31,918 bases of DNA from a virus. Under the pieces are notes generated by a model. It did no database searches. It saw only the letters and a list, made by a program, of their open reading frames with translations, and was not told the DNA's origin. A program made the translations under genes and the position numbers. The first letter of the stretch is position 1. Each line of letters opens with the position of its first letter. The stretch is taken from the IMG/VR virus record IMGVR_UViG_3300029319_000270, positions 1 through 31,918 of that record, one strand, 5' to 3'. Shown here in pieces: positions 1,872 through 31,110 of this stretch.

Positions 1872-2291
1872 ATGGCATTAAAACCCGTAACTGGCACTTC
1901 TTTTAAAAAATCCCGATCATTTAAGGATATCGGGATGAATTTTCGTTTGAATGCAAACACTAAGGACGTTGCTTCAGTGATAAATGATAACGCTATTAAA
2001 CAATCTATCAGAAACTTAATTTTAACAGTTCCTGGTGAGAAACCTTTTCAACCTTCTATCGGATCTCGTATTTCCGAACTCTTATTTGAACCACTTGATA
2101 ATTTTACTGCTGATGCTGTTCGACAAGAGGTAGTAAATACCATTGAACAGTATGAACCTAGAGTAACACTCGCTAGGGTGAATGTTAGAATGAATTTTGT
2201 TAACAACAGTTTTAATGTAGAGGTTGTATACAAAATTGTGGGACTGCCAACCGTAGAAACTATTGAGTTCGTTCTTAAGAGACCAGAATAA
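1872..2291 (+). CDS. 25: Baseplate wedge protein gp25 (GPW/gp25 family)
   Basis: 139 residues, close to the 132 of T4 gp25. In T4-like phages gp25 sits in the inner baseplate, helps join wedges to the hub and tube, and is thought to nucleate sheath polymerisation; T6SS TssE is the bacterial counterpart. Seen: N-terminal KSRSFKDIGMNF leading into NANTKDVASVINDNAIKQSIRNLI, the typical conserved helix, then VPGEKPFQPSIGSRI with the family G-E-x-P-F-x-P motif. The diagnostic Glu-Pro-Arg triad is at residues 95-97 (YEPRV), followed by the closing beta hairpin. All conserved parts are present, so the protein should be functional. The start lies directly after a perfect hairpin and 22 nt after a late-promoter-like box. 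The stop overlaps the gp6 ATG by one base. Confidence 0.96.
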   Translation: MALKPVTGTSFKKSRSFKDIGMNFRLNANTKDVASVINDNAIKQSIRNLILTVPGEKPFQPSIGSRISELLFEPLDNFTADAVRQEVVNTIEQYEPRVTLARVNVRMNFVNNSFNVEVVYKIVGLPTVETIEFVLKRPE

Positions 2292-7300: not shown

Positions 7301-10300
7301 AGAGATAGTACTACTGTATTCCAGTATCAATTACCTCAACCAGCAACAGTTGTTCCTCAAGGTAATATTCTAGTATCTGTTGACTTGAATAAAGGTAAAT
7401 CTGATGATACGCCAGTATTAAATTCTATTGGACCTTATACAACTAACGTTCAAAACTCATTCTTTAATACAGAATACGTTTATGTTGCTTCTACAGGTAT
7501 TCCTAACTACAAGATCGGACCTTTTCCTGGTTCTGCTCTTCTTCCTGGCAACCAACGTAAATTAAACAGATTTCCTCTTACACCTGTTACTATATCTACA
7601 AAAAACACTATCAATCCTGGTCCTATTGGAACTTGGGTAAATGGTGTATCAATTTGGTCTTACAAGTCTAGTATCAAGAAAACATTTGGTGCTGTAACTT
7701 CGATTGATATTACAAACGCAGGTTCTGGATATGATGCTGCATCTCCTCCAAATATTACTATCTCTGGTGGTAGTGGAACTGGAGCAACTGCATCTGTTGT
7801 TGTTAACGGTTCTATCTCTGAAATCACAGTTACAAACGGAGGTTCTGGGTATACATCTTCTCCTCTAGTTTCTATTGTTGGTGGAGGCGGTTCTGGTGCT
7901 GCTGCAACTGCAATTATTACTAAAGGTGTTGTATCTAGAATCTTAATTAATGATGGTGGAACAGGATATACATCACAACCTTCAATCACTATTGTTGGTG
8001 GTGGTGGACTTGGTGCGACAGGCACAGCAAACGTTAGAGGTCCTATTCAATCTATTGCTGTAAGTAGTGGAGGTTCTTCATATACATCTAAACCTAGTGT
8101 TGTTCTAAGTTCTGGTTCTGGTGCTGTAGCACAAGCGATTGTACAGAATGGTCGTATCATTTCTATCGCTATTATCTCTGCAGGTTCTGGATATACCACT
8201 GCACCTACAATTTCAATTCAAGGTGAAGGTTTTGGTGCTGTTGCAAGAGCAACTATTGATGTTGATGGTGAAAATGCAGGTAGAGTTACTGGTATTACAA
8301 TCATTAACAGAGGTATTGGATATACACAGGGAACAACAATTATTAATTTGACTTCAGTTGGTCAAGATGCTGCGTTTAATGCTAATGTATTTGAGTGGAC
8401 ATATAACTTACAAGAAACATCCACTTTAGATGCTGCTAAGGGTGGAGTGTTTGAAGGGTTTAATGCACAGTATGGTGGAGAATATGCACACCCATCTAAT
8501 CCTCAAACTTTAAGATATATTCTTGGTGACAACTTATTTAAGAATACACAACAGCAAATCAAAGAACAGGAAGATCAATTAGTTCACTCTCCTATTATTG
8601 GATGGGCATTTGATGGTAACCCAATCTACGGTCCTTATGGTTACTCTGATCCTACTGATCAAAACTCTTCGATTGCAAGATTGAATACTTCATATCGTTT
8701 AAAGACAGAACTTGTATATGATGCAAATACAAACCCATATCCTGTAAGAACTGCAGGTCCTCTTCTTACTGCAGAAGCAGCAGGTAGATTTGTTGAAGAT
8801 TATGAATATATTTTCAGTTTAGGTGATCTTGACCAGTACAATGGTCGTTTCTGTAAAACACCCGAATATCCTACAGGTAGATATTGTTACTTCGTTACTA
8901 TTGACACTACAGAAGATGGTAACCCACTTTTCCCATATATTCTCGGTCCTAGTTTTAACTCTGTTGTTGATAGTTGGAATCTAAATGCAGACGCTGTTCA
9001 GCAAAATATTCCTACTGGTGTTGTTAGATATCGTGATCCTTATGAGAACGTTGATATTGACGTTGAGAGGGCACCAAATGCCTCTACAAACGCTCTAACT
9101 ACCGAAGATGGAGATTTACTCCTATTTGAGATAGAAGACGAAGATAGAAGCGGTGTGATCGATCAAGCAGAGATTGATGATCCTGATCAAATCTTTGAAG
9201 AATCACCTTTACAACTTTTCGATTACTTCCCTAAAGTTAAACTTGATTCTAAGGTTGATATTGAAGTTGAAACTATTACTAAATTTGAAGATGCTTCTGT
9301 AACTGGATTTACTATTGAAAACCCAGGTGTATCTTATCAGGTTGATGACCGTTTAATATTTGATAACACTGGAACTGATGGAACAGGTGTATCTGCTCGT
9401 GTTTCAAGAATTGTTGGTGAAAGTGTTTTATCATACGGATTTGAAAATGTCAATGGTAATAACTTTGGTGTATTAAAAACTACTAATCCACATAACCTAG
9501 TTGCAGGTGATACTGTCTTTATTGACTATGAACCTATTATGAACAACACAAATAAAACATTTGTTGTTCGTCAATTTAAAGGTATTGAAGAAATTGTTGT
9601 AAATCAAACTGGTTCTGGATATAACAGTGATATTCCCCCAGTAATTACTATTGTTCCTAGAGATGGTGCAGGCACATCTGGTCATTTACAAGCAGTCGTA
9701 ACAAGTGTTGGTTCTATTGATACAGTTAATATCTTAAACTCTGGATCTGGTTACACACAAAATCCTCGTGTTATCTTATCACATCCTCAGATTTTTAAGA
9801 AGGCAGATTACTATGTGTCTAAGATTGAAAATCAAAATTATGTAAAAGTTAATGACGTAGTTGTTAACATCGATAAGGAAGTTTATATTTGCGGTATCAC
9901 TCAAGACGCAACTAATAATAAAGTTGGTTTTGTTGCAAAACTTTCTGCAACAGGTGTTAAAGAATGGGAGAAAACATTAGAAAGTACAGATGGAACTTAT
10001 TACACAGAATTCCAAAAACTTTATGTTGATGGCACTAGCATTTGGGTTGTTGGTAACAACAGACCAAATAGTTCTCTCCTTGATGCCTATAATCCTGATG
10101 TAATTCTTGCAAAATACACAGAGGCAGAAAATGGTCTAAGTGCTACGCTTAATTTACAGAAAGCATATGCAGGTATTTCTGGTGCAACTCGTGCAGATCA
10201 TGTAACTGCTCTTGAAAAATATTCTGACACTAGATTTATTATTGGTGGTTTTACTAATACTAACTCTGGTGCTCCTTATGATGCATATCTTGCTCTTGTT

Positions 10301-22300: not shown

Positions 22301-24130
22301 GATGGTGATATCACAGACGGTCCTTTTACTATGAATGAAGTTGTTGCTAAACAAGGTAATCCTTCTGTTACTGGTGTTGTATATGGTTTCTTTGAAGATG
22401 AAAACTATAAATATCTTGATGTTCGTATAACTGCAGGTCCTTGGGCAGTAGCAGATAATATTGTTGGTGCTAATAATTCTACAACAGCACAAATTAGTGC
22501 AGTTGAAGATAGACTTCATATTATTGATCTTAAAGGTGCTTTTGCTGATAATATTCCATTCAAGGGATATACATCAGGTGCAACTGCAACACCTACATCA
22601 TTCATTAAATCTGAAGCAGCAATCATTGATAATACTGGTGGTAAATTAACTGTTGATACTGCATCTTTATTAGGAACATTTGAAACAACTACTGTTGTTT
22701 ATCCAGAATCTTCTAGACAGTATTTGGATGTTGTTAAGTTCTCTGGTCTTGATATATCCGTTGGTGATAGAATTGCATCCACAGGATATAAGAGACTTGG
22801 TATTTCTATTATAAGTGGATTGAATGTATTTGCTGAAGGTAATAGACTTTATAAAGTTAACTCAGGTATTCAAGATACAAGTACGTATGCGATTATTACT
22901 GAAGTTGACCTTGATAACAATTTCATTTACATCGCAGAATATCAAGGAACATTTACCAATGGTGACATAATTGGTGATTATGGTGTTGGTGCAAGTTTCC
23001 CTGTAGGATATGCTTCTGTTCTAACTGCAACTGTAACTGCAGGTCAGGCAGCTGGTCTCGTTCAAGACATTCGTGATGTTGGACTTAATAAGAGATTATA
23101 TCTTAGTGATGTTGTAGGAACATTTGATGATAAAGATGGACTCAAAGGACCAGATTCTTATGGATCTGTAATTATTGGTAAGGTTGAACTTAAAGCTCGT
23201 GTCAAACGTTCCTTTAGAGGATTTGATGGAGTACAAACTACATTCAAACTTACTACAGATAATGGAACTCAGTATCTACCAGATCCTGCAGGTCATCTAT
23301 TAGTATTTGTCAATGGTATTCTACAACCACCAGGTGCTACTAACGCATATACAGCGTTCTCTGATACTATTCAGTTTACTGAAGCACCTGATCTTGGAGC
23401 ATCGTTTACAGGATTCTATGTTGGTAAACTTAGACAGTTAGATGATATATCATTTGAGTTTGATTCATTACGTCAGTCATTTAACTTGAAACGTAATGAT
23501 GTATTCTACTCACTAACTCTTACAGAGGGTGTACAATCTAGTGTTATCAGACCTGAGAATAATATCATCGTTTCTCTTAATGGTGTTATTCAAGAACCAG
23601 GCGTTGGTTTTGAGATTGTTGGTTCTAGAATCATCTTCTCTGAGATTCCTAGATTTGGATCAACCTTCGTTGCATTCTCTTATGTTGGTTCTGAGGCAGA
23701 CGTTGATGCTGCTGAAGTTATTCCACCAATCGAACCTGGTGACTTTATTGATATTCAAGGTGAGACAGCAGATAGACAAGTTGCTGTTATTGAATCTTCT
23801 AACTCCTTGATCACATTCGATTATCTCGGATCTGTATTTGGTCAAGGTGCTGTTGGTCAATCAGTAATTACCTCAGGATTTATTAAGAATGTTCAAGTAA
23901 CATCTGGTGGATCTGGTTATACATCAAGACCTACTGTTAGACTTGATTCTATATCTGGTTTTGAAGGAAATATTAAGGCACTTGTTGGGGTAGCAGGTGT
24001 TGAAATGAGTGCTGCAGGTTCTGGATATCAAAATCCTGCAATCAATGTCGAGACTACAGTTCCAGATGATTGGACTGCTCCTGACCTTTCATTGTATGGT
24101 GAAGAGTTAGTAGACCCCGAAACCCCATAA
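4319..24130 (+). CDS. Giant (6,603-residue) mosaic baseplate/tail protein at the gene 7 position
   Basis: A single uninterrupted frame of 19.8 kb, product roughly 0.7 MDa. Modules in order (approximate residues): family N-terminus with PAFVENDYPLFNKFIEYYY at 15-33; two short beta units (LIVSLYGKVLVPNIDYTI-type) at 140-300; GSGY repeats 300-620; conserved helical module with IKTIKDFYMAKGTSFS around 690-710; GSGY repeats 1122-1345; YHYH domain 1360-1550; EF-hand-like loop 1607-1618; probable beta-propeller 1828-2205; LamG-like 2210-2420; GSGY repeats 3003-3237; conserved QDSYYYQDFSY/VHPASF module 3452-3490; TFTC repeats and a second LamG 4070-4357; helical units and more TFTC repeats 4390-5550; jelly-roll-like domain 5635-5860; C-terminal beta units ending with two GSGY repeats. 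Gene order (25, 6, this, then 8) puts it where T4 has gp7 (1,032 residues), but homology to gp7 cannot be shown by eye. An alternative is a fused baseplate-rim and fibre protein. There is no signal peptide or Shine-Dalgarno; ATG lies 6 nt after the gp6 stop. Confidence 0.9.
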   Translation: MNINKVSQSIVNQTPAFVENDYPLFNKFIEYYYRSQEKTGLGQNILNEFLQYLDIDKLNIDVLDGATKVVESFTTTDDEIVVESVDQFLENDGSVLIGNEVIYYEKTTHAPNIALSPGISYEQVKLKWTNLASPIDSFDDSTTAFNLTSQDSPIAAPSAQHLIVSLYGKVLVPNIDYTISGTQIVFTTAPRTRIPADDASSTYITYLSGFVENPIVGIDNLSSAFGGGKTQFTITRNGTRYEPVADEYILAVYDNRLLVPKVDFFLDGDQFIFLTAPLNGRFLSLYSIEAPIPSFGSNAVGYSRVNDAGELTSVSINANGSNYRFEYPPQVSVNSDAGSGASVSSLVNGIKTISLIDGGKGYSETNPPIVQVQTPTKPGSTAAVLKATVSNGAVSGLEVLTSGSGYTFTPRITFRQPGGATLGTCPIVNGQVVGTIPITDGGFGYTTVPTVYIDEPTGVNGIRAALEAVLTDGVITSINILNAGQGYETTPRIAVIDPVGAQVLETTVDNDGRVIGIELLNGGSGFDDIPSVYIVDSRTDGQGNYAGGTGATATAAIFNGQITDINVTAFGTGYSQTSPPKVVIQSPPEARASAEIGLNEVTGFTVNQKGTGYSKAKFIGCARAASGITDYTEDGNAVFTNNTIAATGAVDASVKCLDALFVKRLLDKYTEQYLPDVPELDYKKIDVRTSIKTIKDFYMAKGTSFSISYLFKLLYGEQVSISYPKDQIIKPSAATWSIDTILRATLVSGNPVDIRDGLLTQDADIADPNIKAASALVENYISIKTSDVEIFELVLSEETINGTFVVPYKTKLAEPLNTTESIITVDSTIGWPERNGEFIIGGTEVVQYKEKSLNQFIECTRSVNNIVEDWDSATEVASSFQVFVNKGTPQEVVLKVVGIVDAQQTTLTDTGSYYLPGDKLTVSKLGGTGISPELTTWLYNVKKLISVTDISYGGVNNQSATVTCSNPHGLLVGDQVTIYGANPILFNGTFEVTSRDSTTVFQYQLPQPATVVPQGNILVSVDLNKGKSDDTPVLNSIGPYTTNVQNSFFNTEYVYVASTGIPNYKIGPFPGSALLPGNQRKLNRFPLTPVTISTKNTINPGPIGTWVNGVSIWSYKSSIKKTFGAVTSIDITNAGSGYDAASPPNITISGGSGTGATASVVVNGSISEITVTNGGSGYTSSPLVSIVGGGGSGAAATAIITKGVVSRILINDGGTGYTSQPSITIVGGGGLGATGTANVRGPIQSIAVSSGGSSYTSKPSVVLSSGSGAVAQAIVQNGRIISIAIISAGSGYTTAPTISIQGEGFGAVARATIDVDGENAGRVTGITIINRGIGYTQGTTIINLTSVGQDAAFNANVFEWTYNLQETSTLDAAKGGVFEGFNAQYGGEYAHPSNPQTLRYILGDNLFKNTQQQIKEQEDQLVHSPIIGWAFDGNPIYGPYGYSDPTDQNSSIARLNTSYRLKTELVYDANTNPYPVRTAGPLLTAEAAGRFVEDYEYIFSLGDLDQYNGRFCKTPEYPTGRYCYFVTIDTTEDGNPLFPYILGPSFNSVVDSWNLNADAVQQNIPTGVVRYRDPYENVDIDVERAPNASTNALTTEDGDLLLFEIEDEDRSGVIDQAEIDDPDQIFEESPLQLFDYFPKVKLDSKVDIEVETITKFEDASVTGFTIENPGVSYQVDDRLIFDNTGTDGTGVSARVSRIVGESVLSYGFENVNGNNFGVLKTTNPHNLVAGDTVFIDYEPIMNNTNKTFVVRQFKGIEEIVVNQTGSGYNSDIPPVITIVPRDGAGTSGHLQAVVTSVGSIDTVNILNSGSGYTQNPRVILSHPQIFKKADYYVSKIENQNYVKVNDVVVNIDKEVYICGITQDATNNKVGFVAKLSATGVKEWEKTLESTDGTYYTEFQKLYVDGTSIWVVGNNRPNSSLLDAYNPDVILAKYTEAENGLSATLNLQKAYAGISGATRADHVTALEKYSDTRFIIGGFTNTNSGAPYDAYLALVDTSGNFALKRKIASANASEKITDIIINGTDVYFSMETATSANATAVNASFGKATIGTNAITVAWIKEYTNTLYSFIDVACCIDEFEEVYITSTLRLKSNNTTRDSFWVGKVDTDGDLIWNYRYLVSGGQISMAGKCSIDIFGDLNVTFGKTATSDSLKTTESVKIGYDGAIKNHTTNQFNLNNIEGITPYGIATDNSGDVHIFGQSSWNRNEFIFPFTSGSNADTTGHYTLTSTSTNNSITYADNVAKIFGYQTGQTSWTQANLQITSAQLGTKLGDNWTLEMMLYKDSTTTSLSQTQQTIFAIGDAEDATGGLWLYYDMSSGHLELAVTNQTTKLNSASSALQSGSTTMFANNSWQFISLVKNGNTFTAYVNGLQALTGTVANTSLGGKDLYVGNIPGRSTTAGQFRSNEQGTYYVDNLRLRNRAVTPTVPSDVTTFPTVGLFGFTFDWVDDAWFTTNLNQYDYIDYTGWGIKVDKNADAARIGTQTLQTNTQVGFIRTNVTPVTGSTLTMVTTGYALGDAGFQNLDFDDATTTMSQDTETLTYTQDVWSSRTATVPSPGSQKLSVTAVVKDRYYFKVTPTLKIDNVQELTLNQSFRFTTGAKLRLNNDSGQFVNSGYIVNQDTTNNKIYVAINNNAWSNDTNTGLLVTEQFSEQSSYGIVGPIPNDVNEIVGYTFPQINNTTPGTFDINLNDYNHPEGGSNNLDELAKFKPHSDIDYSIRIDEVAAGSPFIVGSVVFITSSDISFNAAYTTAQITNLTAVLKITLVANLTKRLQVSSVANSDEVYVITSNSHYLNPGEMLFIDGNPSVEQGGVTYDEYDGSFPVDRVISSKEFVYKLPQAAVTSPATTGSSVNIFVKSPVIKMYNGHQYLFDLSHSSMVGGNLSFSKDNLNKLEYSFNSIERVGTPGVTGEGVPNPTVKLKVDNTIVTNISYYFDPSRTGTDSPIVEGSYLDVTNSPYLGNFVITSTSGQTITRGADTFKFSLINEPEGDADITQTSYTTSSVKAVGSIGAVRIVNSGGFYTRLPIVSSIQSNRQIERVAINTPGTEYAVGVYNGVPIGGDGEGGLVQITVSDGTDDEGGVIPGQISEVVVTSPGKGYTTATIDIEAIDGILGAGLTGSGAELEVVIPAFGSGASIFTKGDKVGKIKKLKNNNFGYDYPHDYTLRPEITFPINAQLTSTSILASITVTNPGSGYSQAPTVVITGGGGTGAVAESTIRNGRLDQIIVKDPGSGYSSTPTVALRSAFNYVVNLDLGLLQFAFPHGITNGSAVTVTVTDTGSGADFPLAAGAVGRLNSTTTYYAIAGTANSLEDDQLKLALTPANAELGDALSFVNAGEGRQTVLTESFGGAATANVITSTFLEGELVYQGDSLETATAQGFVSTNQGWQIGPRVLKIVDYTGDFSQGQKVTGVISKSSGTISDLNIAKGVLEIGSITKTTGQFIDDVGKPSEIIQKIQDSYYYQDFSYAIKSAVSIGEWKDILIKNVHPASFKVFGELNLSDYGSIPNKTTDFSITKSVELAREAIVPNIQNFALVEPVYSEFNNTEVLFRQKRLTSSENILTSVVQRLDDISNLFDGERISFPLTVNTDNVVANANQLMIVLNGVVQNPGTSFQIQGDSIVFSEPPQPPASIKYVNVSINQIATKDLSFTNISGIFPLVGNTLVGTVSLARLTVTKVVGDVVSGFITQGTFVVGELVNVGATGFAANIAAVTDVTSNGLYAFGETVTNLTGETAIVEQINLATGQETPLAQLRYTIGPSTTSIEVVAYKTNNATADQVVPDNTFVATKNYQFGSEIFRVDSITNGSESTTLGVTRAQSGTAASSQQEDVPVYGTDIQVTGALTLSKTAGTYQSTPGLFDIQLNDYIIGASSGVVSQITATSAYQDPATQEFISQVNISEGSSFFGLLFNRITSQTYPNVVLDNISQSQVSIVQFQNNTTAFDFDFPNNEILNSYVIPYDNLVTGPIQQDETIRNYKLDYGNSSGDFNVGEICNVRKLAFKDKVGDGFFAAGQVIRTTDTKAEVIGYNQARSTIYLGKIGRTKSTGEDYHVATFTKATINTANKKFGQACLALTPGLSDHTFVSGVTDAITASGGATGSFTAATGTTYNPVTGDMVLEIGTHTLTTSNTVTIADGGVTFTCDQDGNVSGKAYPRSTDPASGSALNITAVTGTTITVNVGVASPIDEYINIPSSSEFAFGSDAFTIECWVKPLSASLTSERNIIDMRASSATEVAGRLYLNAAQLRWNVNGSDLVNTGATVLAANTWYHVAVVKSSTTTKIYIDGVERGTGTDSTTYTAKPIRVGMDYAGANGFAGYIDELRVSTTNRYTGAFTAPLGVFQGDANTKLLFHFDGANGDQFTQDWSGTNDFTKGEDFNNDAILETSRLTGTPAGFAAKSQRYYDAADLIIANTDLIKKEVVYQMRQRYPELVILGTRYTPTAATYDAATGLLSMTVTGNSLENGGTITPQTATYDAATGVMVITKLAHGLKNGQRVNIKVGGITFTCTQDSNASEHSYPRSTDPVAGKWIKVANVTDHTFEVNVGASQVGQQYAHTFVSALANAITVEKDRIKILDNALTFTCAMDGNTSNKTYPRSTDPASKDVALPIISSSSTNLTVNVGPSPLVNYQPSNATYDPATGAFVMTIANHTINVGTQIRLTADSFTFTCTQDGNSAQKTYPRATAGDGSPDPAYNTALDVTAVGTTTQDISNAAYNPVTGILTVDTNSAHGLTTGNRIQIADESLKFTCAYDGNATQHDYPRQTDPIRGEWIEVTVVDSDTFTVDIGTSSDTSTHSFVSATAGALIKQTGTVTINVGVSAQADQYAHTFVSAAANAVVTGGNYLHTFVSAVDNSVIGDEGINCEDDIRDTLNAIVQDLRNGSNNHIWDAASYYVNRNVNPVTIAQIEPAVKETLFAYEKVDDMLQYIITNTLWTIQGDHGLTQKTDTTITDSSNPTYTYFQPTDATYDPATGDMVLTIGSHSLTTASRVDIAIGGITFTCTKDGNATNHSYPRATDPAANAVLAVKSVVANTSITVNVGKSGPNDQYAHTFVSANQNAVRVLDYTTSDCADVFTTVGNLIDILTDTITNASANPAVDHLASVTRVEPKYEFVGGTVDSYLDTEFTSTYQDTTNDILYTNQIDLDTRARFRDSARLIRSNRSVIVDKAAADMLARYPALAQDMPRNQNGGSTDGTLRCKTDLGLILDGLADDVENDGNLGTVTAAKFYIGNSGELLHIRLQVFQSVYAHERLAEYAKQAVLGTLDYTNTDNIIVGNWGVAGAGTPNYFDAVTTYIDTLVTTINDIIAPTGNDFEIGADRLYFNRDWITDETTAYTTINFQYSLNGVNYNAFTYGAGEQLLARNALEDLLLAVISDLQTGGTNSTIQEMEKYLNANLTINNTVIAEKALAARIYSIEKLKTIGEYAIKNYAYSLSEAPVASPNYAAIYTGEVAYRDTESPGDINAVAFRFKELIDIAVNILAPGKNIARSAAKNIQYNTNYYKNEISNQVNAQFGTGAWVYDDFIDELVDNFVSDSITTDVTKTSDAYTITLSAQNGTDFIVGEVVTSSGGGIATVLEWDSENDLLYVGPFTSTAWVATNTLTAPSGATGTIASGGVSSAYTWYTEASNVEYLKSARSITSNIAGQVSGTNLWTNPEAFGTNWTETNLTRTDNAFAGPDGTLTAEKYVGQNGVAGNHILHRDFNLTAFETFDTDGVKFDSTGETFDTGSTSDVSQTFTASVFFKAVGSQSVRFKLQLDQGQAGEQNIFFDLNLTNGTIGSLFIPQLGITGDAYGAIPYGNGWYRAYITATFSFGFSSLRTQVTVNSSAGSQSWTGDGTTGVYFWGAKLNKGAVDPYTAVGGQIFYANTEYNIKNYTIDLLEGYMGQALDGTLTSPSPNAGFYSYYDSTAASDYAKISIQRLLRYGLNIIRNQLNVDTYYTTITQVNGISVPTKTYGTRDIPVGVSGGLTSSDYIYGTVSSQYAEIESVLENSGKVVQVYQRFRIDGDITDGPFTMNEVVAKQGNPSVTGVVYGFFEDENYKYLDVRITAGPWAVADNIVGANNSTTAQISAVEDRLHIIDLKGAFADNIPFKGYTSGATATPTSFIKSEAAIIDNTGGKLTVDTASLLGTFETTTVVYPESSRQYLDVVKFSGLDISVGDRIASTGYKRLGISIISGLNVFAEGNRLYKVNSGIQDTSTYAIITEVDLDNNFIYIAEYQGTFTNGDIIGDYGVGASFPVGYASVLTATVTAGQAAGLVQDIRDVGLNKRLYLSDVVGTFDDKDGLKGPDSYGSVIIGKVELKARVKRSFRGFDGVQTTFKLTTDNGTQYLPDPAGHLLVFVNGILQPPGATNAYTAFSDTIQFTEAPDLGASFTGFYVGKLRQLDDISFEFDSLRQSFNLKRNDVFYSLTLTEGVQSSVIRPENNIIVSLNGVIQEPGVGFEIVGSRIIFSEIPRFGSTFVAFSYVGSEADVDAAEVIPPIEPGDFIDIQGETADRQVAVIESSNSLITFDYLGSVFGQGAVGQSVITSGFIKNVQVTSGGSGYTSRPTVRLDSISGFEGNIKALVGVAGVEMSAAGSGYQNPAINVETTVPDDWTAPDLSLYGEELVDPETP
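5218..6180 (+). repeat. GSGY repeat block 1 of the giant protein (about 8 units)
   Basis: Encoded units of about 35-45 residues share the pattern: short beta strand, Gly-x-Gly-Tyr (GKGYSE, GSGYTF, GFGYTT, GQGYET, GSGFDD, GTGYSQ, GTGYSK), then Pro-x-V/I-x-I strand, Gly/Ala loop, and a nG-x-I/V-x-x-I strand. The units are diverged rather than identical, so they are old. The block lies between the N-terminal signature and the KDFY module. Confidence 0.8.
6270..6560 (+). other. Conserved helical module of the giant protein (KDFYMAKGTS)
   Basis: Residues about 651-747. It holds FVKRLLDKYTEQYLPDVPELDY, then K695-D696-F697-Y698 followed by AKGTSFSISYLFKLLYGEQ and SYPKDQI. I recognise this R/K-D-F-Y-x-x-K-G-T pattern, together with the residue 15-33 signature, from large structural proteins of marine T4-like phages. 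These two segments define the family to which the N-terminal half belongs. Confidence 0.65.
7685..8350 (+). repeat. GSGY repeat block 2 of the giant protein (6 units)
   Basis: Six consecutive units: GSGYDAAS, GSGYTSS, GTGYTSQ, GSSYTSK, GSGYTTA and GIGYTQG. Each has a P-x-I/V-x-I strand and a GGGGxGA loop. This is the most regular array in the window and the best template for a profile of the repeat. Two isolated units follow at about 9600-9780 (GSGYNSD, GSGYTQN). Confidence 0.85.
8400..8960 (+). other. YHYH domain within the giant protein
   Basis: Residues about 1360-1550. The first half has SPIIGWAFDGNPIYGPYGY. The second has LDQYNGRFCKTPEYPTGRY, then FPYILGPSFN. These are the characteristic YHYH-domain segments (D-G-x-P-I-Y-G-P and Y-N-G-R-F-x-x-T-P-E-Y-P). 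The tetrapeptide that names the family is Y1522-C-Y-F1525 here, so both His are replaced. The domain's biochemical role is not known to me. Confidence 0.75.
9137..9172 (+). other. EF-hand/dockerin-like calcium loop in the giant protein
   Basis: Residues 1607-1618 read DEDRSGVIDQAE. This matches the 12-residue EF-hand loop pattern (D at 1, D at 3, S at 5, G at 6, I at 8, D at 9, E at 12). It lies in a strongly acidic linker after the YHYH domain. Only one loop is visible, so calcium binding is an inference. Confidence 0.5.
9800..10935 (+). other. Probable beta-propeller domain in the giant protein
   Basis: Residues about 1828-2205 contain repeated short motifs of the kind 'evYicGi... vGFVAKLsatGvkeWekt', 'IWVVGNN... 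DVILAKYT', 'FIIGGFT... DAYLALVDTSGNF', 'VYITSTL... FWVGKVDTDGDLIWNYRYL' and 'VHIFGQSSW'. The recurrence of a beta strand plus Gly, then a vaKld-G-W strand is typical of SBBP/PQQ-like propeller blades. The number of blades is not certain (five to seven). Confidence 0.6.
10945..11580 (+). other. LamG/concanavalin-like domain 1 in the giant protein
   Basis: Residues about 2210-2420: NWTLEMMLYKD, GLWLYYDMSSGHLEL, SWQFISLVKNGNTFTAYVNG, then YVDNLRLRNRAVTP. These are the standard strands of the LamG/ConA-like jelly roll. Such domains often bind glycans in phage fibres, but no ligand can be named. Confidence 0.65.
13325..14030 (+). repeat. GSGY repeat block 3 of the giant protein (diverged)
   Basis: Four looser units: GGFYTR, GKGYTT, GSGYSQA and GSGYSST. 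Acidic and Gly-rich loops between them (GGDGEGG, DGTDDEGG) are not seen in block 2. The block precedes the QDSYYYQ module. Confidence 0.65.
14640..14800 (+). other. QDSYYYQDFSY / VHPASF module of the giant protein
   Basis: Residues about 3441-3494 contain IQKIQDSYYYQDFSYAI (Tyr 3455-3457) and VHPASFKVFGEL (His 3482). I associate this pair of motifs with the distal part of the same marine phage protein family whose N-terminus opens this gene. Here more than 3,100 residues follow it. Confidence 0.55.
16440..17390 (+). other. LamG-like domain 2, interrupted by a TFTC repeat
   Basis: The opening strand (ATINTANKKFGQACLAL, about base 16465) and the rest of the fold are in one frame. The rest is YINIPSSSEFAFGSDAFTIECWVKP, then WYHVAVVKSSTTTKIYIDGVERG, then GYIDELRVSTTNRYTG, from about base 16858. 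Between them lies one HTFVSG/TFTC repeat (about 16530-16855). Without the insert the LamG fold would be continuous. Confidence 0.6.
17480..20950 (+). repeat. Duplicated helical units in the giant protein, with TFTC insertions
   Basis: Unit part 1 occurs at about 17494-17610 (RYYDAADLI...MRQRYPEL) and 19735-19830 (RFRDSARLI...MLARYPAL). A trace appears near 20750 (IARSAAKNI). Part 2 occurs at about 18876 (INCEDDIRDTLNAIVQDL), 19877 (LRCKTDLGLILDGLADDV) and 20375 (ALEDLLLAVISDL). Each part 2 is followed by a helix like YAHERLAEYAKQA, IYSIEKLKTIGEYAI or FAYEKVDDMLQYI. These are diverged copies of one alpha-helical module. Confidence 0.6.
17623..18870 (+). repeat. TFTC/HTFVSA repeat array in the giant protein
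   Basis: About four to five diverged units share ATYDPATG-x-x-V/M-T-I, a glycine turn, F-T-C-x-x-D-G/S-N, three to five residues, Y-P-R-x-T-D-P, a T-V-N-V-G strand and a QYAHTFVSA end. FTC/YPR pairs occur near bases 17807, 18037, 18290 and 18530. A related unit precedes LamG 2 (16617-16860) and another lies at 19178-19475. Each unit carries a single Cys. Confidence 0.75.
21220..21900 (+). other. Jelly-roll/carbohydrate-binding-like domain in the giant protein
   Basis: Residues about 5635-5860: NLWTNPEAFGTNWT, TFTASVFFKA, GNGWYRAYITATF, then GVYFWGAKLNKGAVDPYTAVGG. The N-x-W opening, the W-Y/R-R strand and the closing 'G-V-Y-x-W-G-A-x-L-x-x-G' strand are typical of phage-fibre jelly-roll domains related to carbohydrate-binding modules. 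The ligand is unknown. Confidence 0.5.
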
Positions 24131-24153: not shown

Positions 24154-25374
24154 ATGGCTAAACAATCCCTAGGTCTTGGAGCATCAGCTAATGATAACAC
24201 AGGTGATACCCTGAGAGCTGGTGGTGACAAGATTAACGACAATTTTAATGAGATATATACCGCTATTGGTAACGGTACAAATTTGAATATCTCTTTATCT
24301 AATCCTGCCAGTGGTCAGGTTCTTAGATATAATGGTTCAACATTTTTACCTTCAGACTATAGTGCACTAACTACATCTCTGGATGTAGCAGGTTATTCTA
24401 TTATATCCTCTTCTAATGGTAATATAAATCTCAATCCGAATGGAACTGGTAATGTATTAATTAATAATGGAAGTATTGTTAACACTTTTAATGGAACTAC
24501 AGGAGTTGTAGACTTTCCAACAAAGATTCAATATAAAAATGAGTATGATGCTTTAGGAAATGCACCAGCTGCTGCATCTTACACTGGATACTTTTTTACT
24601 GTTGATGGTGACGATAATCCATATGTTAACATCAACATAACAGCTGGTGGTGTTGGTGATACCAGAGCAAAACTTCTTACTGAATATTCTAGTATTGATG
24701 CACTAAGTGACGTAGATATTACAACAGTAGCACCAACTGCTAACCAGATTTTAAAGTGGAATGGATCAGCATTTACACCAGCTGATGAGACTGGTGGTGG
24801 TGCTGCATCACAGAACATCTTTGCATCCGTAGCGGGTGATACTGGTTCAACAACTGCTGACAGCACAAGTGATACCTTAACTATTGCAGGTGGAACTAAT
24901 ATTACAACAGCAGTTTCTGGAGACACACTCACAGTTAACTTCAGTGGATCGTTATCTACGACTCTTGCTGCTCTTACTGATACAGATGTTTCTGGTATTA
25001 CTCAAGGTGATTCGCTCTTTTATAATGGAACTAATTGGACTGTTACTAGATCTCCTATTACATGGTGGGAGTTGACTGCACCTGACGCATCTGGTTATAA
25101 CTTTACAGGACCAGGTTTCGCGGCTGCGACAGCAGATCCTACTTTATATGTTATGAGAGGAATGACATATGCTTTTGATAACAATGCTGGTGGTGCACAC
25201 CCATTTAGAATTCAAAGCACACAAGGTCTAACAGGAACTCCATATACTACAGGTCAGACTGGTAGTGGAACTTCAGTTCTTTATTGGACTGTTCCTATGG
25301 ACGCTCCTAATACACTGTATTATCAGTGTACAATTCACGCAGCGATGGCTGGTCAAATTAACGTAGTTTCATAA
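24154..25374 (+). CDS. Tail-fibre-like protein with a C-terminal cupredoxin domain
   Basis: 406 residues. The N-terminus SLGLGASANDNTGDTLRAGGDKINDNFNEIY is a module common at the start of marine phage fibre and baseplate-attached proteins. Three copies of a fibre repeat follow: GQVLRYNGSTFLPSDY, NQILKWNGSAFTPADE and DSLFYNGTNWTVTR, the last two preceded by LSDVDI/LTDTDV. The C-terminal ~95 residues look like a cupredoxin: a strand TLYVMRGMTYAFDNN, then H349 in GGAHPFRI, and finally C392, H395 and M398 in YYQCTIHAAMAGQI. The Cys-x2-His-x2-Met spacing equals that of amicyanin's type 1 copper site, and the His-to-Cys distance (43) is near amicyanin's 39. All four ligands are present. Copper binding and any redox or adhesion role are inferences. 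ATG 24154 is the first in frame after a stop; no clear Shine-Dalgarno, but a late-promoter-like box lies just upstream. Confidence 0.85.
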   Translation: MAKQSLGLGASANDNTGDTLRAGGDKINDNFNEIYTAIGNGTNLNISLSNPASGQVLRYNGSTFLPSDYSALTTSLDVAGYSIISSSNGNINLNPNGTGNVLINNGSIVNTFNGTTGVVDFPTKIQYKNEYDALGNAPAAASYTGYFFTVDGDDNPYVNINITAGGVGDTRAKLLTEYSSIDALSDVDITTVAPTANQILKWNGSAFTPADETGGGAASQNIFASVAGDTGSTTADSTSDTLTIAGGTNITTAVSGDTLTVNFSGSLSTTLAALTDTDVSGITQGDSLFYNGTNWTVTRSPITWWELTAPDASGYNFTGPGFAAATADPTLYVMRGMTYAFDNNAGGAHPFRIQSTQGLTGTPYTTGQTGSGTSVLYWTVPMDAPNTLYYQCTIHAAMAGQINVVS

Positions 25375-25377
25375 TAG

Positions 25378-28300
25378 ATGACAAGAACTGTTCCTGGTAC
25401 TGGTGCTGTAATCAACCCCATCTTCGATGAAGTATTTGGGGTTCGTGCGGTTGAAGTTACGAATGGAGGATCTGGATACTCTCCTACTGATCCACCACGT
25501 CTAACCATAACTGGTTGTGGAACTCCAACGAGAGAGGCAATTTTATATCCGATTATTGACACTGATTCTGGTAGAATTATTCATGTTCGTGTTTTAGATA
25601 GAGGTCTAGGATATGATCCTCTAAGATTACAGATCATTCCTCAAGATGAAACTCCTAACGTTGTTAATTCATTTGACATCAATAGAATTTGGCAATCACA
25701 TCCAAACTCTCCTACTACAGGAACTTTCACAGGAACTACAGATAGACTTAGAATAGTATCTGATAATCATCCTAAACCAACTTGGACATTAGCAGAAGCA
25801 GCACCTGGCGGTGGTCCTTTAGTTGATAGGTCTTTTGATCAATCCTTTATATTTCGTGGTGGTAAAGATGTTCCTAATCCAGGCATAAGAGCATTTCAGA
25901 ATGATAGAGTAAATGGTATATTAGCAAACGGAGGTCTGTTACATACACCTGAGTGGGGTGTAGATGGTAATGCTCCAGCTGGTCAACAGATTGATGTAGT
26001 TAAGTATCCATATGTTAAATCTATGGATGATTATGATGTTGTCACTGAAAATAATATTAAGTATTATCATTCAAACAAATTAATTTCAGAGTTTGAATTA
26101 GAAAATGGTGTGTTTGATTGGGGTAATGTTCAAGTATTTACTTGGAATGTTAAAGTTGAAATGGATAATATTGTTCTTGATGTAACTGAAGTAGATGAAA
26201 CTTTAGGTGCATTTGAAGTAGGTAGAATAGTTGACGAAGTATCTGGTAATGCAAGAGGAGAAGTAGCTAAGGTTGTAAGAAATAATCAGAACGTTGTAAC
26301 AAGAGTTTATTTAAGAAATGTATCTACTGGTGCATCTTTTTCTGATCAAGATGTTTGTTTAGGTTCAAATGGATTTCAGTTCAAAATAAATGCTGATCCT
26401 ATTGCACTTACAACAGGTGTTTTTTATATTGATTTTGGAACAGATGCAGATGAGTTTGGTCCTTTTGTACCAGGTCAATATTATTTTGCTCCAGAAAATA
26501 TCAAAGTTCAAAGAAAGTATCTAATTATTTGGAATCAATCAGACTCATCTAATCAACAAGGTGCAGGTCATCAGATGCAGTTTAGTCTTACTCCTGATGG
26601 AATTCATAATGATTCACCAGGTACTCTCTACTATCAAAGCACTGGTGTATCACAAGCACCTGCTGCGGATTATGAAAATGAGTATGCACCTATCTTCATA
26701 ATGAACGGTGACGAAAGTGCTAGAATTTATTATTACTGTAAAAATCACCCTAACATGTCAGGTTATGATGGTGATGAAGGATATATGATTTTAGATCCTA
26801 CGATCGAAGATCATGCAATGCCTAATAATTATTATGCTGCAGATTTTTATCAGTCAGATTCAAATGATCCAAATACTATAGATAGATCACGTCATGTAAA
26901 TGGACATTCCAAAATTCTTGGTATGTCATATGATGGGTATCCTATTTACGGTCCTTATGGATATAATTCTATCGGTGCTGTAGCAAGAGAAGTATCATCA
27001 TATCGTTTAAGGACAACTGCTGAATTAGCAGGTAATAGACCGCAGGTAAATACAGTATCTACTGTTACATACGCTGTAACAATTTCCAATGGTCAATTTA
27101 TGTTTGATGGTTCTCGTCCATCATTCTTAGATTTGGATCGTGGAAAAACATATATTTTTAATCAAAATGACTCATCTAATGATAGTCAACATTTATTAAT
27201 CTCAACTACGGACGATGGATGGCATGGGCAAGATCCTGTTGTTATTGGGAATACTGCAAATCTGTATTCTGGTAATGGAATTAAATATTATATTGACGGT
27301 TCCGAGGTAACCTATCAATCATATCTGTCAGGATTTAACTTGGCAACCACTCGTGAACTTAGGTTCACAGTTCCTGTTGATTCGCCTGCACAGTTATTCT
27401 TATTTGCATATACAACTGCGGGTCATGGTATTAGAACTGTTCAAGAAGGATATGTTTTAGGTGATTTAGTTGGTGATTATATTTACGATTCTTCTGTAGG
27501 AACACTAGATGAATATAATGGTAAGTTTGACTCTACACCTGAGTATCCAAACGGAACATATGCATACTTTATGACAGAGGATAGTAGTGCTAATCCTACA
27601 TATCCATACGCTATTGGTCCTAAAATGTATGGCACACCTGTTGCTGAAGGAGACACGCTACCACCAGTATCAACTACATTCCCAACTCTTGCTGAAGGTG
27701 ATGTCATCTTAAATGATGACGGTACAGTTTCTTATGTCAAGATGACAAAGAAAGGAGATAATTACTTTGGTGCTGCTAGAGCAGAAATTTTAGGTGGACA
27801 AGGAACAGGTGCTGTAGGATCTCCTATTGTTCAAACTGTTACTGGTTTATCTCTACTTACAGCAGGTAGAAGTTATGCAACTCCTCCAACACTTATCTTT
27901 GAAGGTGGTGGTGGACAAGGTGCACAAGGTGCTGCTGAAATTGATACTTTAGGTAGAGTTACTTCTATTAGTATTGCAGATGATGGTGAATTCTATCAAG
28001 AACCTCCTTTTGTATTGATCACTGGTGGAGGTGGTATTGGTGCTAAAGCAGTTGCAACAATAGATCAAGGTAAAATTAGTAGCATTACAGTAACAGATCC
28101 TGGTAGTGGATATACATCTGCACCAAATGTTATCTTCACTAAATTAGTAAATCTTAAACGTAAAGCAAGAGCACGTCAGGCAAATAATTCAGGTACAATT
28201 TACTTAACTGGTCTCGTTAAAAATGTAACACCATCAGACTCAACAATATATGTTGATTCTACAGATGCATATCCTGGTTCTGGTCAAATTATTCTAAATA

Positions 28301-29541
28301 AAGAGACTATCACATACACTTCTAAAGCAGCAGGTGTATTCTCTGGTCTTACTAGAGGTGTAAACTTTAATTATGATCAACGTGTAATTCTTGATGCAGG
28401 TCAAAATGATTCACAAGGAAACTCAACTTACAAATTTAATGTTGGTGACCGAGTAATCCGTAAAGTTGAGAACGCAAATAATAAAGTTGCAAAGGTATAT
28501 GACTGGAATCCTGCTACAAGAGAACTTTTAGTTACTTTTGAAGTTGATGAATTAGCATTTATTGATGGTGGTAGACCTTCTACTGAAGATGCTATCGTTC
28601 AATTTGATGCAGGTGTTGCTGCATCTTCTGGACCAGGTGTTCTTCCTCATACCACTGAGGCAAATGTAGGAAGTAGTATTTCAACATTAACAGTTCCTAT
28701 TGGAGTAATCGCAGATACTAGATTTGTTGATATTGCTGAAAATGCTGGTGCTGGTGATGGTATACCAGATTTAGACAATACTAATACTGATTTCTTAAAT
28801 CAGATTAGTCTTGATGGTGGTATCTACAGTTCTTTATACGGTATTGAGGAAACTCAAGGTGGTCAAAACACTACCTTATTCCAAGTTGGTGACAATATCA
28901 AAGATGGTAGTATTCCATTCAAGTTTGCAAGTGTTGATACAGCAGGTGCATTAAGTGATGGTGTTGAGCATAATGCAGGTCTTAAGATTTTCTTAGATGC
29001 AACAAATGCTAATGGACAGAACTATAGTGTTAACGAAGTTGTCACAGGTTCTGTATCAGGTGTTCAAGCAACAGTAGTATCTTGGGATCCTTCTGAGACT
29101 TCAGTTGTTGTTCAGAACGTAGTCCCATATAACACAGGTAATATTGCTATTGGTATTGCTGGTTATCTTTATGAATTTTCACAGAAAGGCACGATTGTTG
29201 ATTTCAATGTTCAAAATCCAGGTACTAACTATTCTGCTCCTCCAACAGTTGCGATAGAAAATACTGGGGACATTCAAGCTACAGCAACAGCAGTTCTAAC
29301 AACTGCAGGTGACCAAGTTGCTTCATTAACAATCAATAATGGTGGGTATGGTATCCCACAAACAGTTGACGGAACTTATAACGTACACCCTACAGTAACA
29401 TTTACCAATGCAACTGGTGATACTACTGGTGCAGGTGCAGTTGCACAGGCAATTCTAGGTGGAGAAAATCTCGTTGGTAACGCAGGTGCAACCTATCGTA
29501 TCAAGAGAATTGAGTATCTAGCAACTGTTCGTTCAAAATGA
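25378..29541 (+). CDS. Large tail protein with cupredoxin, YHYH and GSGY modules
   Basis: 1,387 residues starting 3 nt after the previous stop, with no Shine-Dalgarno, so probably coupled. Order (approximate residues): GSGY repeat (GGSGYSPTDPP, 26-36); unassigned region with many Asn/Asp; cupredoxin-like domain about 370-470 with H398 (AGHQMQF), C454, H457 and M460 (YYYCKNHPNMSG), a complete type 1 copper set. A YHYH domain follows, with first half 509-555 (DGYPIYGPYGY) and second half 708-750 (LDEYNGKFDSTPEYPNGTY, then YPYAIGP). A second, Cys-less cupredoxin-like stretch (561-692) lies between the halves. Then come GSGY repeats 788-927, an 'IILNKETITY...LTRG' unit near 970, and a C-terminal GSGY pair. 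The YHYH tetrapeptide is Y728-A-Y-F731. The gene lies between the fibre gene and gp8, so a baseplate-attached position is likely. Exact function unknown. Confidence 0.85.
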   Translation: MTRTVPGTGAVINPIFDEVFGVRAVEVTNGGSGYSPTDPPRLTITGCGTPTREAILYPIIDTDSGRIIHVRVLDRGLGYDPLRLQIIPQDETPNVVNSFDINRIWQSHPNSPTTGTFTGTTDRLRIVSDNHPKPTWTLAEAAPGGGPLVDRSFDQSFIFRGGKDVPNPGIRAFQNDRVNGILANGGLLHTPEWGVDGNAPAGQQIDVVKYPYVKSMDDYDVVTENNIKYYHSNKLISEFELENGVFDWGNVQVFTWNVKVEMDNIVLDVTEVDETLGAFEVGRIVDEVSGNARGEVAKVVRNNQNVVTRVYLRNVSTGASFSDQDVCLGSNGFQFKINADPIALTTGVFYIDFGTDADEFGPFVPGQYYFAPENIKVQRKYLIIWNQSDSSNQQGAGHQMQFSLTPDGIHNDSPGTLYYQSTGVSQAPAADYENEYAPIFIMNGDESARIYYYCKNHPNMSGYDGDEGYMILDPTIEDHAMPNNYYAADFYQSDSNDPNTIDRSRHVNGHSKILGMSYDGYPIYGPYGYNSIGAVAREVSSYRLRTTAELAGNRPQVNTVSTVTYAVTISNGQFMFDGSRPSFLDLDRGKTYIFNQNDSSNDSQHLLISTTDDGWHGQDPVVIGNTANLYSGNGIKYYIDGSEVTYQSYLSGFNLATTRELRFTVPVDSPAQLFLFAYTTAGHGIRTVQEGYVLGDLVGDYIYDSSVGTLDEYNGKFDSTPEYPNGTYAYFMTEDSSANPTYPYAIGPKMYGTPVAEGDTLPPVSTTFPTLAEGDVILNDDGTVSYVKMTKKGDNYFGAARAEILGGQGTGAVGSPIVQTVTGLSLLTAGRSYATPPTLIFEGGGGQGAQGAAEIDTLGRVTSISIADDGEFYQEPPFVLITGGGGIGAKAVATIDQGKISSITVTDPGSGYTSAPNVIFTKLVNLKRKARARQANNSGTIYLTGLVKNVTPSDSTIYVDSTDAYPGSGQIILNKETITYTSKAAGVFSGLTRGVNFNYDQRVILDAGQNDSQGNSTYKFNVGDRVIRKVENANNKVAKVYDWNPATRELLVTFEVDELAFIDGGRPSTEDAIVQFDAGVAASSGPGVLPHTTEANVGSSISTLTVPIGVIADTRFVDIAENAGAGDGIPDLDNTNTDFLNQISLDGGIYSSLYGIEETQGGQNTTLFQVGDNIKDGSIPFKFASVDTAGALSDGVEHNAGLKIFLDATNANGQNYSVNEVVTGSVSGVQATVVSWDPSETSVVVQNVVPYNTGNIAIGIAGYLYEFSQKGTIVDFNVQNPGTNYSAPPTVAIENTGDIQATATAVLTTAGDQVASLTINNGGYGIPQTVDGTYNVHPTVTFTNATGDTTGAGAVAQAILGGENLVGNAGATYRIKRIEYLATVRSK
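27061..27455 (+). other. Degenerate cupredoxin-like domain nested inside the YHYH domain
   Basis: Residues about 561-692: strand TYAVTISNGQFMFDG, then FLDLDRGKTYIFNQNDSSNDSQHLLIST, LRFTVPVDSPAQLFLFAY, and AGHG. The layout (strand, 'GKTYIFNQND', His strand, 'FTVP..SPxxLFLF') parallels the copper-ligand domain of the same protein (RKYLIIWNQSDSSNQ..GH). The Cys-x2-His-x2-Met loop is replaced by a sequence without Cys, so no type 1 site can form. Confidence 0.55.
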
Positions 29542-29577: not shown

Positions 29578-31110
29578 ATGGCAGCTCTATTAACTGATCA
29601 ATTTAGAATTTTTTCAGCGAAAAAATTCATCAAGGCACTTGAAGGTCCCGATGCGACTCAGAGCGACGACGCTGCTGGTTCATCTAGAGACCGAGTATAT
29701 TTGTTTATCGGAAGACCACAAGTTTGGGATAATGAAAACTCGCCACCACAGGCAGTAGATTCATTCTCTGAATTTTCTGGTTCTTATGATGACATGATAT
29801 CTTTGAAAAGAGTGCTTGCATCTGACACTGTACAGGTGGTAAGACGTATCGACTGGGTTTCTCCAGAAGAAACTACTGGTGGATTAGGTTTCACCTATGA
29901 CATGTATCGTCAAGATTATTCTCCTAGTAAAACTGCTGCCTCAGGTGCTACTAAGTTATATGATTCTGATTTTTACGTTGTAAACTCTCAGTATCAAGTA
30001 TACAAGTGCATTTACAATGGAACCTCACCCTCTGATCCTAATGGTAAACCTTCTACTGTCGAGCCTACTGGCACTAGCACTAGCATCATCACTACTGGCG
30101 ATGGGTATCGTTGGAAGTATATGTACACTATTCCAGTTGCAAGCGTTCTTAAGTTTTTCTCGAATGACTACATGCCAGTCTTCACTAATGCTGCGGTAAA
30201 AACAAACGCTGTATCTGGTGAAATTGATACTGTTGTAATCAATGCAGCAGGTTCTGGATATAACAACGGAACTTATGACAACGTTGCCATCAACGGAGAT
30301 GGAACTGGTGGTCGTGTTTCTATTGTTATTGATGGTGGTAAAGTTATCTCTGCTACTGTTACATCTGGTGGAACTGGATATACATTCGGTAAAATCAGTA
30401 TTGACAACATCACAGGTGTTGGAACAGGAACTGGTGGACAGGTTGATGTTATCATTCCTCCTCCAAACGGTCATGGTGCTGACGCTGTTGTAGAGATTGG
30501 TGCATTCCGTGTAATGATCAATGCCAAACTCTCATATGATGAAGGTGCAGGTGATTTCCCTATTGATAACGACTATCGTCGTATTGGTCTTATCACAAAC
30601 CCTCTAAAGTTTGGAACTGAAGAACTTATTTCTGACTTGACAGTATCTGCTACAAAAGCAGTTATCTTCTCTCCTACATTCCAAGGCAACTATGTGCCTG
30701 ATGAAATTATTACACAAACACGAGTTGTTGGTGGAACCAACGTTACTGCTCGTGGAAGAGTAATTTCTTGGAACGCTACAACTAAACTTCTGAAATATTA
30801 TCAGAACGCAGTTGATGGTATTTTCCCTGAGGTTACAGGTACTCAAAATGAATTTGATGGTTCTAATGTCATCAATGGTGCAACATCTGGTGCTGCTGGT
30901 CAACCTGATGTTAACTTTCCAGCCGTGCCGAACTCTTCTTCTAGAACAATTAACAACACCGAGTATGACTTGGGTATGAAATTCAACAATGGATATTCTA
31001 AACCCGAAATCAAGTCAAATAGCGGTGACGTTGTGTATATAGATAATAGGAGAGCAATCAGTCGTGCTAACGACCAAGTAGAAGACATCAAAATCGTAAT
31101 CGAGTTCTAA
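29578..31110 (+). CDS. 8: Baseplate wedge protein gp8, with a GSGY insertion
   Basis: 510 residues, against 334 for T4 gp8. gp8 is a dimeric component of the T4 baseplate wedge that holds gp10/gp7-side parts. Seen: start LLTDQFRIFSAKKFIKAL; DRVYLFIGRPQVWDNENSPPQAVDS; FTYDMYRQDYSP; Y177-R-W-K-Y-M-Y with the surrounding GDG and PVASVLKFF; D332YRRIGLITNPLKFG; and a conserved end (GDVVYIDNRRAISRANDQVEDIKIVIEF). These match gp8 of marine T4-like phages. Residues about 212-300 are two GSGY-type units (GSGYNNGTYDN, GTGYTFGKISI) with Gly-rich loops, lying between DYMPVFTNA and VEIGAFRVMINAKL. T4 gp8 has no such insert, and it accounts for much of the extra length. The ATG is the only possible start, as a TAG lies two codons upstream. 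Confidence 0.9.
   Translation: MAALLTDQFRIFSAKKFIKALEGPDATQSDDAAGSSRDRVYLFIGRPQVWDNENSPPQAVDSFSEFSGSYDDMISLKRVLASDTVQVVRRIDWVSPEETTGGLGFTYDMYRQDYSPSKTAASGATKLYDSDFYVVNSQYQVYKCIYNGTSPSDPNGKPSTVEPTGTSTSIITTGDGYRWKYMYTIPVASVLKFFSNDYMPVFTNAAVKTNAVSGEIDTVVINAAGSGYNNGTYDNVAINGDGTGGRVSIVIDGGKVISATVTSGGTGYTFGKISIDNITGVGTGTGGQVDVIIPPPNGHGADAVVEIGAFRVMINAKLSYDEGAGDFPIDNDYRRIGLITNPLKFGTEELISDLTVSATKAVIFSPTFQGNYVPDEIITQTRVVGGTNVTARGRVISWNATTKLLKYYQNAVDGIFPEVTGTQNEFDGSNVINGATSGAAGQPDVNFPAVPNSSSRTINNTEYDLGMKFNNGYSKPEIKSNSGDVVYIDNRRAISRANDQVEDIKIVIEF

Follow-up and report, generated by a model that had tools for sequence, protein, structure and literature searches.

The gp7-position protein of a marine cyanophage baseplate appears to carry a cupredoxin-type domain (cu2) that has all the ligand residues of a type-1-like copper site, in the short spacing of amicyanin. 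We put the probability at about 0.55 that this assignment holds together with the insertion of cu2 into a YHYH domain and with the prediction that the site fills with copper and locks the domain. Among homologues, every long-form gp7 that is complete carries the full ligand set in one domain only, either cu2 or a related domain further along the chain (cu3).

The window, a viral contig of 31,918 bases from IMG/VR, is by its genes and their families a baseplate cluster of a T4-like marine cyanophage, and it shows the T4-style order in which gp6 precedes a gp9/10-like gene, gp7 and gp8 (Table 1). Homologues were found in 384 phage records, nearly all of them Synechococcus or Prochlorococcus phages. 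In the case of the gp7-position protein, 279 phage records hold homologues across at least 80% of its length, many of which are annotated as baseplate wedge subunit or initiator. We identify the protein as gp7 from this synteny and annotation; a search for a solved gp7 returned no PDB sequence matching the 1,387-aa protein at E ≤ 1.

Table 1. Positions in the window of the baseplate genes, the cupredoxin-like domains and the YHYH pieces
Feature	Position	Strand	Basis and details
gp6-like	2291-4312		phrog_219
6,603-aa virion protein	4319-24130		
Uninterrupted YHYH domain, 6,603-aa virion protein	8420..8908	+	PF14240, 116.5 bits
406-aa baseplate wedge tail fibre connector, T4 gp9/gp10-like N-terminus	24154..25374	+	phrog_677; PF07880; PDB 2fl8/1pdp matches
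cu1, C-terminal cupredoxin-like domain of the 406-aa protein, residues 295-406	25036..25371	+	H349, C392, H395, M398
1,387-aa baseplate wedge protein, gp7 position, host of cu2	25378..29541	+	ORF; phrog_708, E=0, residues 1-1386
Segment missing from cu2-less cyanophage gp7s, about residues 248-501	26119..26880	+	alignment with ACG-2014d, S-RIM14 and L313 gp7; approximate boundaries
cu2, cupredoxin-like domain, gp7 residues 358-478	26449..26811	+	alignments; family profile A4 match
Codon of predicted ligand H398	26569..26571	+	
Codon of predicted ligand C454	26737..26739	+	
Codon of predicted ligand H457	26746..26748	+	
Codon of predicted ligand M460, axial position	26755..26757	+	
YHYH-domain piece between the two cupredoxin inserts (GHSKILGMSYDGYPIYGPYGY...)	26881..27021	+	PF14240; sequence
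cu3, second cupredoxin-like gp7 domain, residues 549-697	27022..27468	+	AF2 pLDDT about 90; fold matches; ligand states
C-terminal YHYH piece	27451..27588	+	PF14240 best stretch, residues 692-737
gp8	29578-31110		phrog_438

The four candidate ligands of cu2, H398, C454, H457 and M460, lie at exactly the residues given for them in an earlier note on this DNA, in a part of gp7 (residues 368-474) that corresponds to window positions 26480-26800. They stand in type-1 order and end in a short C-terminal ligand loop; order and spacing, His ... C-x2-H-x2-M, are the same as in amicyanin, from which cu2 differs by its long loop from the first His to the Cys. Across the 6,603-aa, 406-aa and 1,387-aa proteins, the C-x2-H-x2-M motif occurs only in cu2 and in cu1, the C-terminal domain of the neighbouring connector, whose ligands are unchanged in 108 of 108 homologues. 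The earlier note had described these two domains as differing strongly around the ligands, and they are only 22% identical. This value rules out a recent duplication of cu1 into cu2, and the comparison supports the view that they are two old, separate domains.

Within cu2 itself, the ligands are nearly invariant. A first set of viral-contig relatives covering them retained the first His in 124/124, the Cys in 125/125, the second His in 124/124 and the Met in 124/124. A non-redundant set of 72 cu2 domains, with a mean identity of 0.65 and a minimum of 0.36, has His, Cys and His throughout and Met in 71, with one gap; all four ligand columns are among the 20 of 118 columns that are invariant, for which the random-column probability is 6e-4. 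Synonymous codons are mixed at these positions (CAT/CAC 72/18 and 51/39 for the two His, TGT/TGC 74/16 for the Cys), which implies that ligand identity has been maintained and is not recent. Non-ligand His residues vary freely: of 33 non-redundant proteins, 21% retain H410. A few non-ligand Met and His residues are well kept too. In some homologue scans the ligand motif was part of the search pattern; the phage records were gathered by plain tblastn, and those read in detail keep the ligands likewise. This near-invariance is indicative of strong purifying selection, as had been proposed. Loss of Cys or Met at the background rate, named beforehand as the result that would overturn the proposal, is absent from cu2 and is seen in its sister domain cu3 in the same proteins, which makes cu3 a good control. 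One gp7 fragment (L263) has a divergent cu2 (YYYCKNHGSYHPEEAY) with an altered Met loop, the sole cu2 seen without the Met.

A wider comparison drew on a set of 15 divergent phage tail, baseplate and fibre domains, whose identity to the first is 22-63%. In this alignment just six columns out of 113 do not vary (H, G, Y, C, H and M), and four of these are the ligands; the same reckoning gives about 2e-6, which is indicative only, the sequences being related. Members of this set were picked after the ligands had been seen, and every domain fetched in the first round had them. The full set is present in domains fetched by tblastn from S-H34, P-RSM6, S-SCSM1, Sf-FS3, S-B68, S-CAM4, S-H9-1, S-TIM5 and Pelagibacter phage Baldr, and is kept in an S-RIM44 domain that has a long insertion within it. 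When nine further domains were fetched, seven retained the ligands (HTVC028P, a Pelagibacter phage; a Methylophilales phage; MED4-213; P-TIM68; a single-cell marine virus; an S-BM3 peptidase S8 protein; and S-P4 gp7), while those of PSS2 and S-IOM18 had lost them. Related domains of P-RSM6 and S-WAM1 have lost ligands as well, implying that the site is dispensable in some settings. Two of these relatives, L408 (S-WAM1) and L412 (P-RSM6), keep the first His, but their Cys loop appears to be gone; the ligands are thus not always lost together. A further domain, in a 2,539-aa protein of P-RSM6 (L407), reads C-x2-H-x2-Q, with an axial Gln as in stellacyanin.

When the profile of these 15 domains (A4) was searched against all PDB sequences, it matched mainly plastocyanins, amicyanins, copper nitrite reductases and rusticyanin, while some antibody chains ranked below these; plastocyanin, amicyanin and copper nitrite reductase came up at E 1e-5 to 1e-3, with values of 1e-5 for copper nitrite reductase, 1e-4 for plastocyanin and 5e-4 for amicyanin, and in the alignments the C, H and M of the profile fall on known copper ligands. 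Profile comparison places cu2 in the same phage domain family, and A4 matches cu2 at 8e-26, although A4 itself includes the cu2 sequence. The proposed kinship of the ligand-bearing domains to type-1 copper proteins thus gains support from profile matches, and the link runs through a mixed-family profile. Searched against PDB sequences, cu2 alone or a profile of its close relatives returned designed-repeat proteins and antibodies only. There was no Pfam match for cu2, which did not reach the gathering score of PF00127; the best related phage domain scored 19.2 bits with that family against a cut-off of 21.2, and a match to TIGR02656 was likewise below threshold. For this reason, we do not file cu2 as a member of PF00127.

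The same viruses also carry a plastocyanin (petE) as an auxiliary metabolic gene, present in 13 of 18 phage genomes checked. It shares the blue-copper ligand set with cu2; unlike cu2, however, it is a separate small gene with a signal peptide and a longer loop, C-x2-H-x4-M. Profile alignment (hhalign) of cu2 (A3) or cu1 (A2) with the phage plastocyanins gave no convincing score.

Structure prediction, for which the earlier note had called, gave a beta-sandwich for cu2 alone (pLDDT 79.6) but not a distinct cupredoxin match. The best fold match was to a nucleoside hydrolase-related protein (Z 4.4), and copper nitrite reductase (4.2), plastocyanin (3.5) and amicyanin (3.3) were mixed with immunoglobulin domains and not separated from them. 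Overall, Foldseek and VIA-align searches with this model returned mostly immunoglobulin domains; that no clear cupredoxin stood out in them is not evidence against a cupredoxin fold. Since the fold search with cu2 alone was indecisive, we assign cu2 to the cupredoxins, at the level of sequence, by its profile kinship to cu3 and to the wider phage family and by its ligand pattern.

In the case of cu3, the fold is clearer. In an AF2 model of gp7 residues 345-770, confidence is high (pLDDT about 90) over about residues 556-690. The fold matches of this larger model come from cu3: residues 552-697 align with two-domain laccases, auracyanin A and rusticyanin at Z of about 7.4-8.1. Where the earlier note had two cupredoxins in neighbouring genes, there is thus a third cupredoxin-like domain further along the same protein, and in the window it is ligand-less, with Q/A/T/H at the four ligand places and no Cys. 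The two gp7 domains are related (hhalign of cu2 and cu3, 95%, 3.5e-8, from an alignment that leaves out four truncated ORFs carrying cu2 sequences). Both are inserts in a PF14240 YHYH domain, which is found in gp7 in two stretches (52.1 bits, cut-off 25) and serves as their scaffold. YHYH has been proposed to be a tail-associated metal-dependent hydrolase (Iyer et al. 2021, PMC7824862), in an account that mentions neither cupredoxin nor copper. Unlike the namesake of the family, the gp7 copies are without the eponymous motif, Y-H-Y-H being present in 0 of 192 gp7 proteins over 1,000 aa.

By alignment, cu2 and its leader are an insertion into the YHYH domain relative to the gp7s that have no cu2. 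Among these, the gp7s of ACG-2014d, S-RIM14 and S-SSM2 have H ... C-x2-H-x2-M in cu3. Among 238 gp7-like ORFs, every cu2-bearing protein has a ligand-less cu3 or ends before cu3, and cu2-less proteins that have cu3 carry the full site there (23 ORFs); the one exception, L341, begins at a contig edge and is missing the cu2 end. The number of ligand letters per cu3 domain is 0 (183 domains), 1 (9) or 4 (24), and never 2 or 3. Where cu2 is present, the cu3 ligand positions rank 141, 91, 137 and 143 of 146 in conservation. No complete gp7 with two ligand-complete sites was seen among the 238; four proteins that seemed to have both intact were truncated ORFs carrying cu2 sequences. As cu3 keeps its fold after losing the ligands, the fold does not need them, and something else keeps them. 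A tree built from the C-terminal part puts the gp7s with cu2 on one side of a branch, which indicates that the switch between cu2 and cu3 happened once; as a single event, it is not repeated proof. The short gp7s of S-WAM1, P-RSM6 and S-H38 have neither insert, and the domain lies in other genes there. In five relatives (L087, L097, L141, L143 and L150), the cu2-YHYH-cu3 region is longer, by up to about 320 extra residues.

Because the ligands are near-invariant and the site is kept in cu3 where cu2 is absent, marine phage tails probably carry copper, and we judge it likely that the predicted site binds copper or a like metal. Each gp7 chain would then hold one copper ion. A T4 wedge has one gp7 and three gp9, which by analogy would give about 6 gp7 sites and about 18 cu1 sites per baseplate. 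Amicyanin and plastocyanin are free secreted or lumenal electron carriers, whereas cu2 is a domain within a virion protein. The cu1 and gp7 proteins are without the signal peptides found on phage plastocyanins and so should be assembled in the cytosol; the site would probably fill once the virion has left the cell and encounters copper there. Given metal binding, we see about even odds that its role is structural: the bound metal would lock the domain into a rigid shape that resists proteases and salt at the baseplate exterior, where the domain may touch either the host surface or an adjacent protein of the baseplate. Electron transfer or sensing by cu2 is possible but unsupported.

Other roles can be weighed against such a lock. 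The retention of the full type-1 set, axial Met included, exceeds the needs of a structural metal site, and might instead reflect a redox-active switch, in which copper passing between Cu(II) and Cu(I) at the host surface would alter the domain and help to license adsorption or baseplate triggering. Extracellular superoxide, surface reductases or leaked photosynthetic electrons could drive the change, and light-dependent adsorption, described for some cyanophages, would fit. Yet no redox partner or trigger is known, and Pelagibacter and Methylophilales phages also have the domain, so photosynthesis is not required; we consider such a switch unlikely. It is decidedly improbable that marine phage baseplates have a dedicated copper redox site that gp7 must hold in one copy, in either domain, and that the redox state of this site at the cell surface controls adsorption or DNA ejection.

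The copper-laden tail might also serve as bait or receptor ligand, a copper Ferrojan horse whose site docks a host copper-uptake or surface protein. Many marine phages do have the domain in proteins of the baseplate, the tail-fibre connector or the fibre, and PMC11705849 discusses metal-bearing tail fibres in others. We think this quite unlikely, given that cu2 belongs to a wedge protein of the baseplate core, not to a variable tip, and that it is conserved between phages of different hosts. Equally doubtful is the idea that the four residues are kept without metal, whether to pack the core, to form a hydrogen-bond network or to make contact between subunits. In its favour, residues Y, G, N and D are also invariant in the close cu2 set, but the divergent set fixes the ligands while nearly all else varies, cu3 retains its fold after joint ligand loss, and ligand order and spacing are those of amicyanin. 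Cupredoxin sites can accept other divalent metals, and assembly takes place in a copper-poor cytosol, but occupation in vivo by Zn, Ni or Co, or by Cu only adventitiously, is very unlikely because an axial Met within a Cys/His2/Met set is the family's copper signature.

A search of the open-access literature found no earlier description of cupredoxins in phage virions. If the lock or any other copper-bearing role is correct, virion copper sites would be a chemistry not seen before in these viruses, which are among the most abundant in the ocean. With roughly two dozen filled sites per baseplate, these phages would carry copper, and their adsorption could depend on how much light, copper and superoxide there is in surface water. 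The pair cu2 and cu3 amounts to a natural experiment: one protein and one fold, with one copy bearing ligands and one without. The iron-binding tail-fibre domains of the Ferrojan-horse hypothesis (e.g. PMC11705849) likewise place a metal site at the host-facing end of a marine phage tail, the metal there being iron and here, by prediction, copper.

Similar domains occur in other proteins of marine phages. Tail fibres of two Pelagibacter phages (L434, L385) and a Methylophilales phage (L435), which infect non-photosynthetic marine hosts, have a full-ligand domain, and ligand-complete cupredoxin domains lie in proteins annotated as peptidase S8 or subtilisin-like in S-BM3 (L438) and S-H9-1 (L384). 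A search of eight window proteins gave a weak, ligand-less cupredoxin-like match in the 6,603-aa protein (12848-13105, E 0.0015), and the giant proteins of S-WAM1 and P-RSM6 have similar matches.
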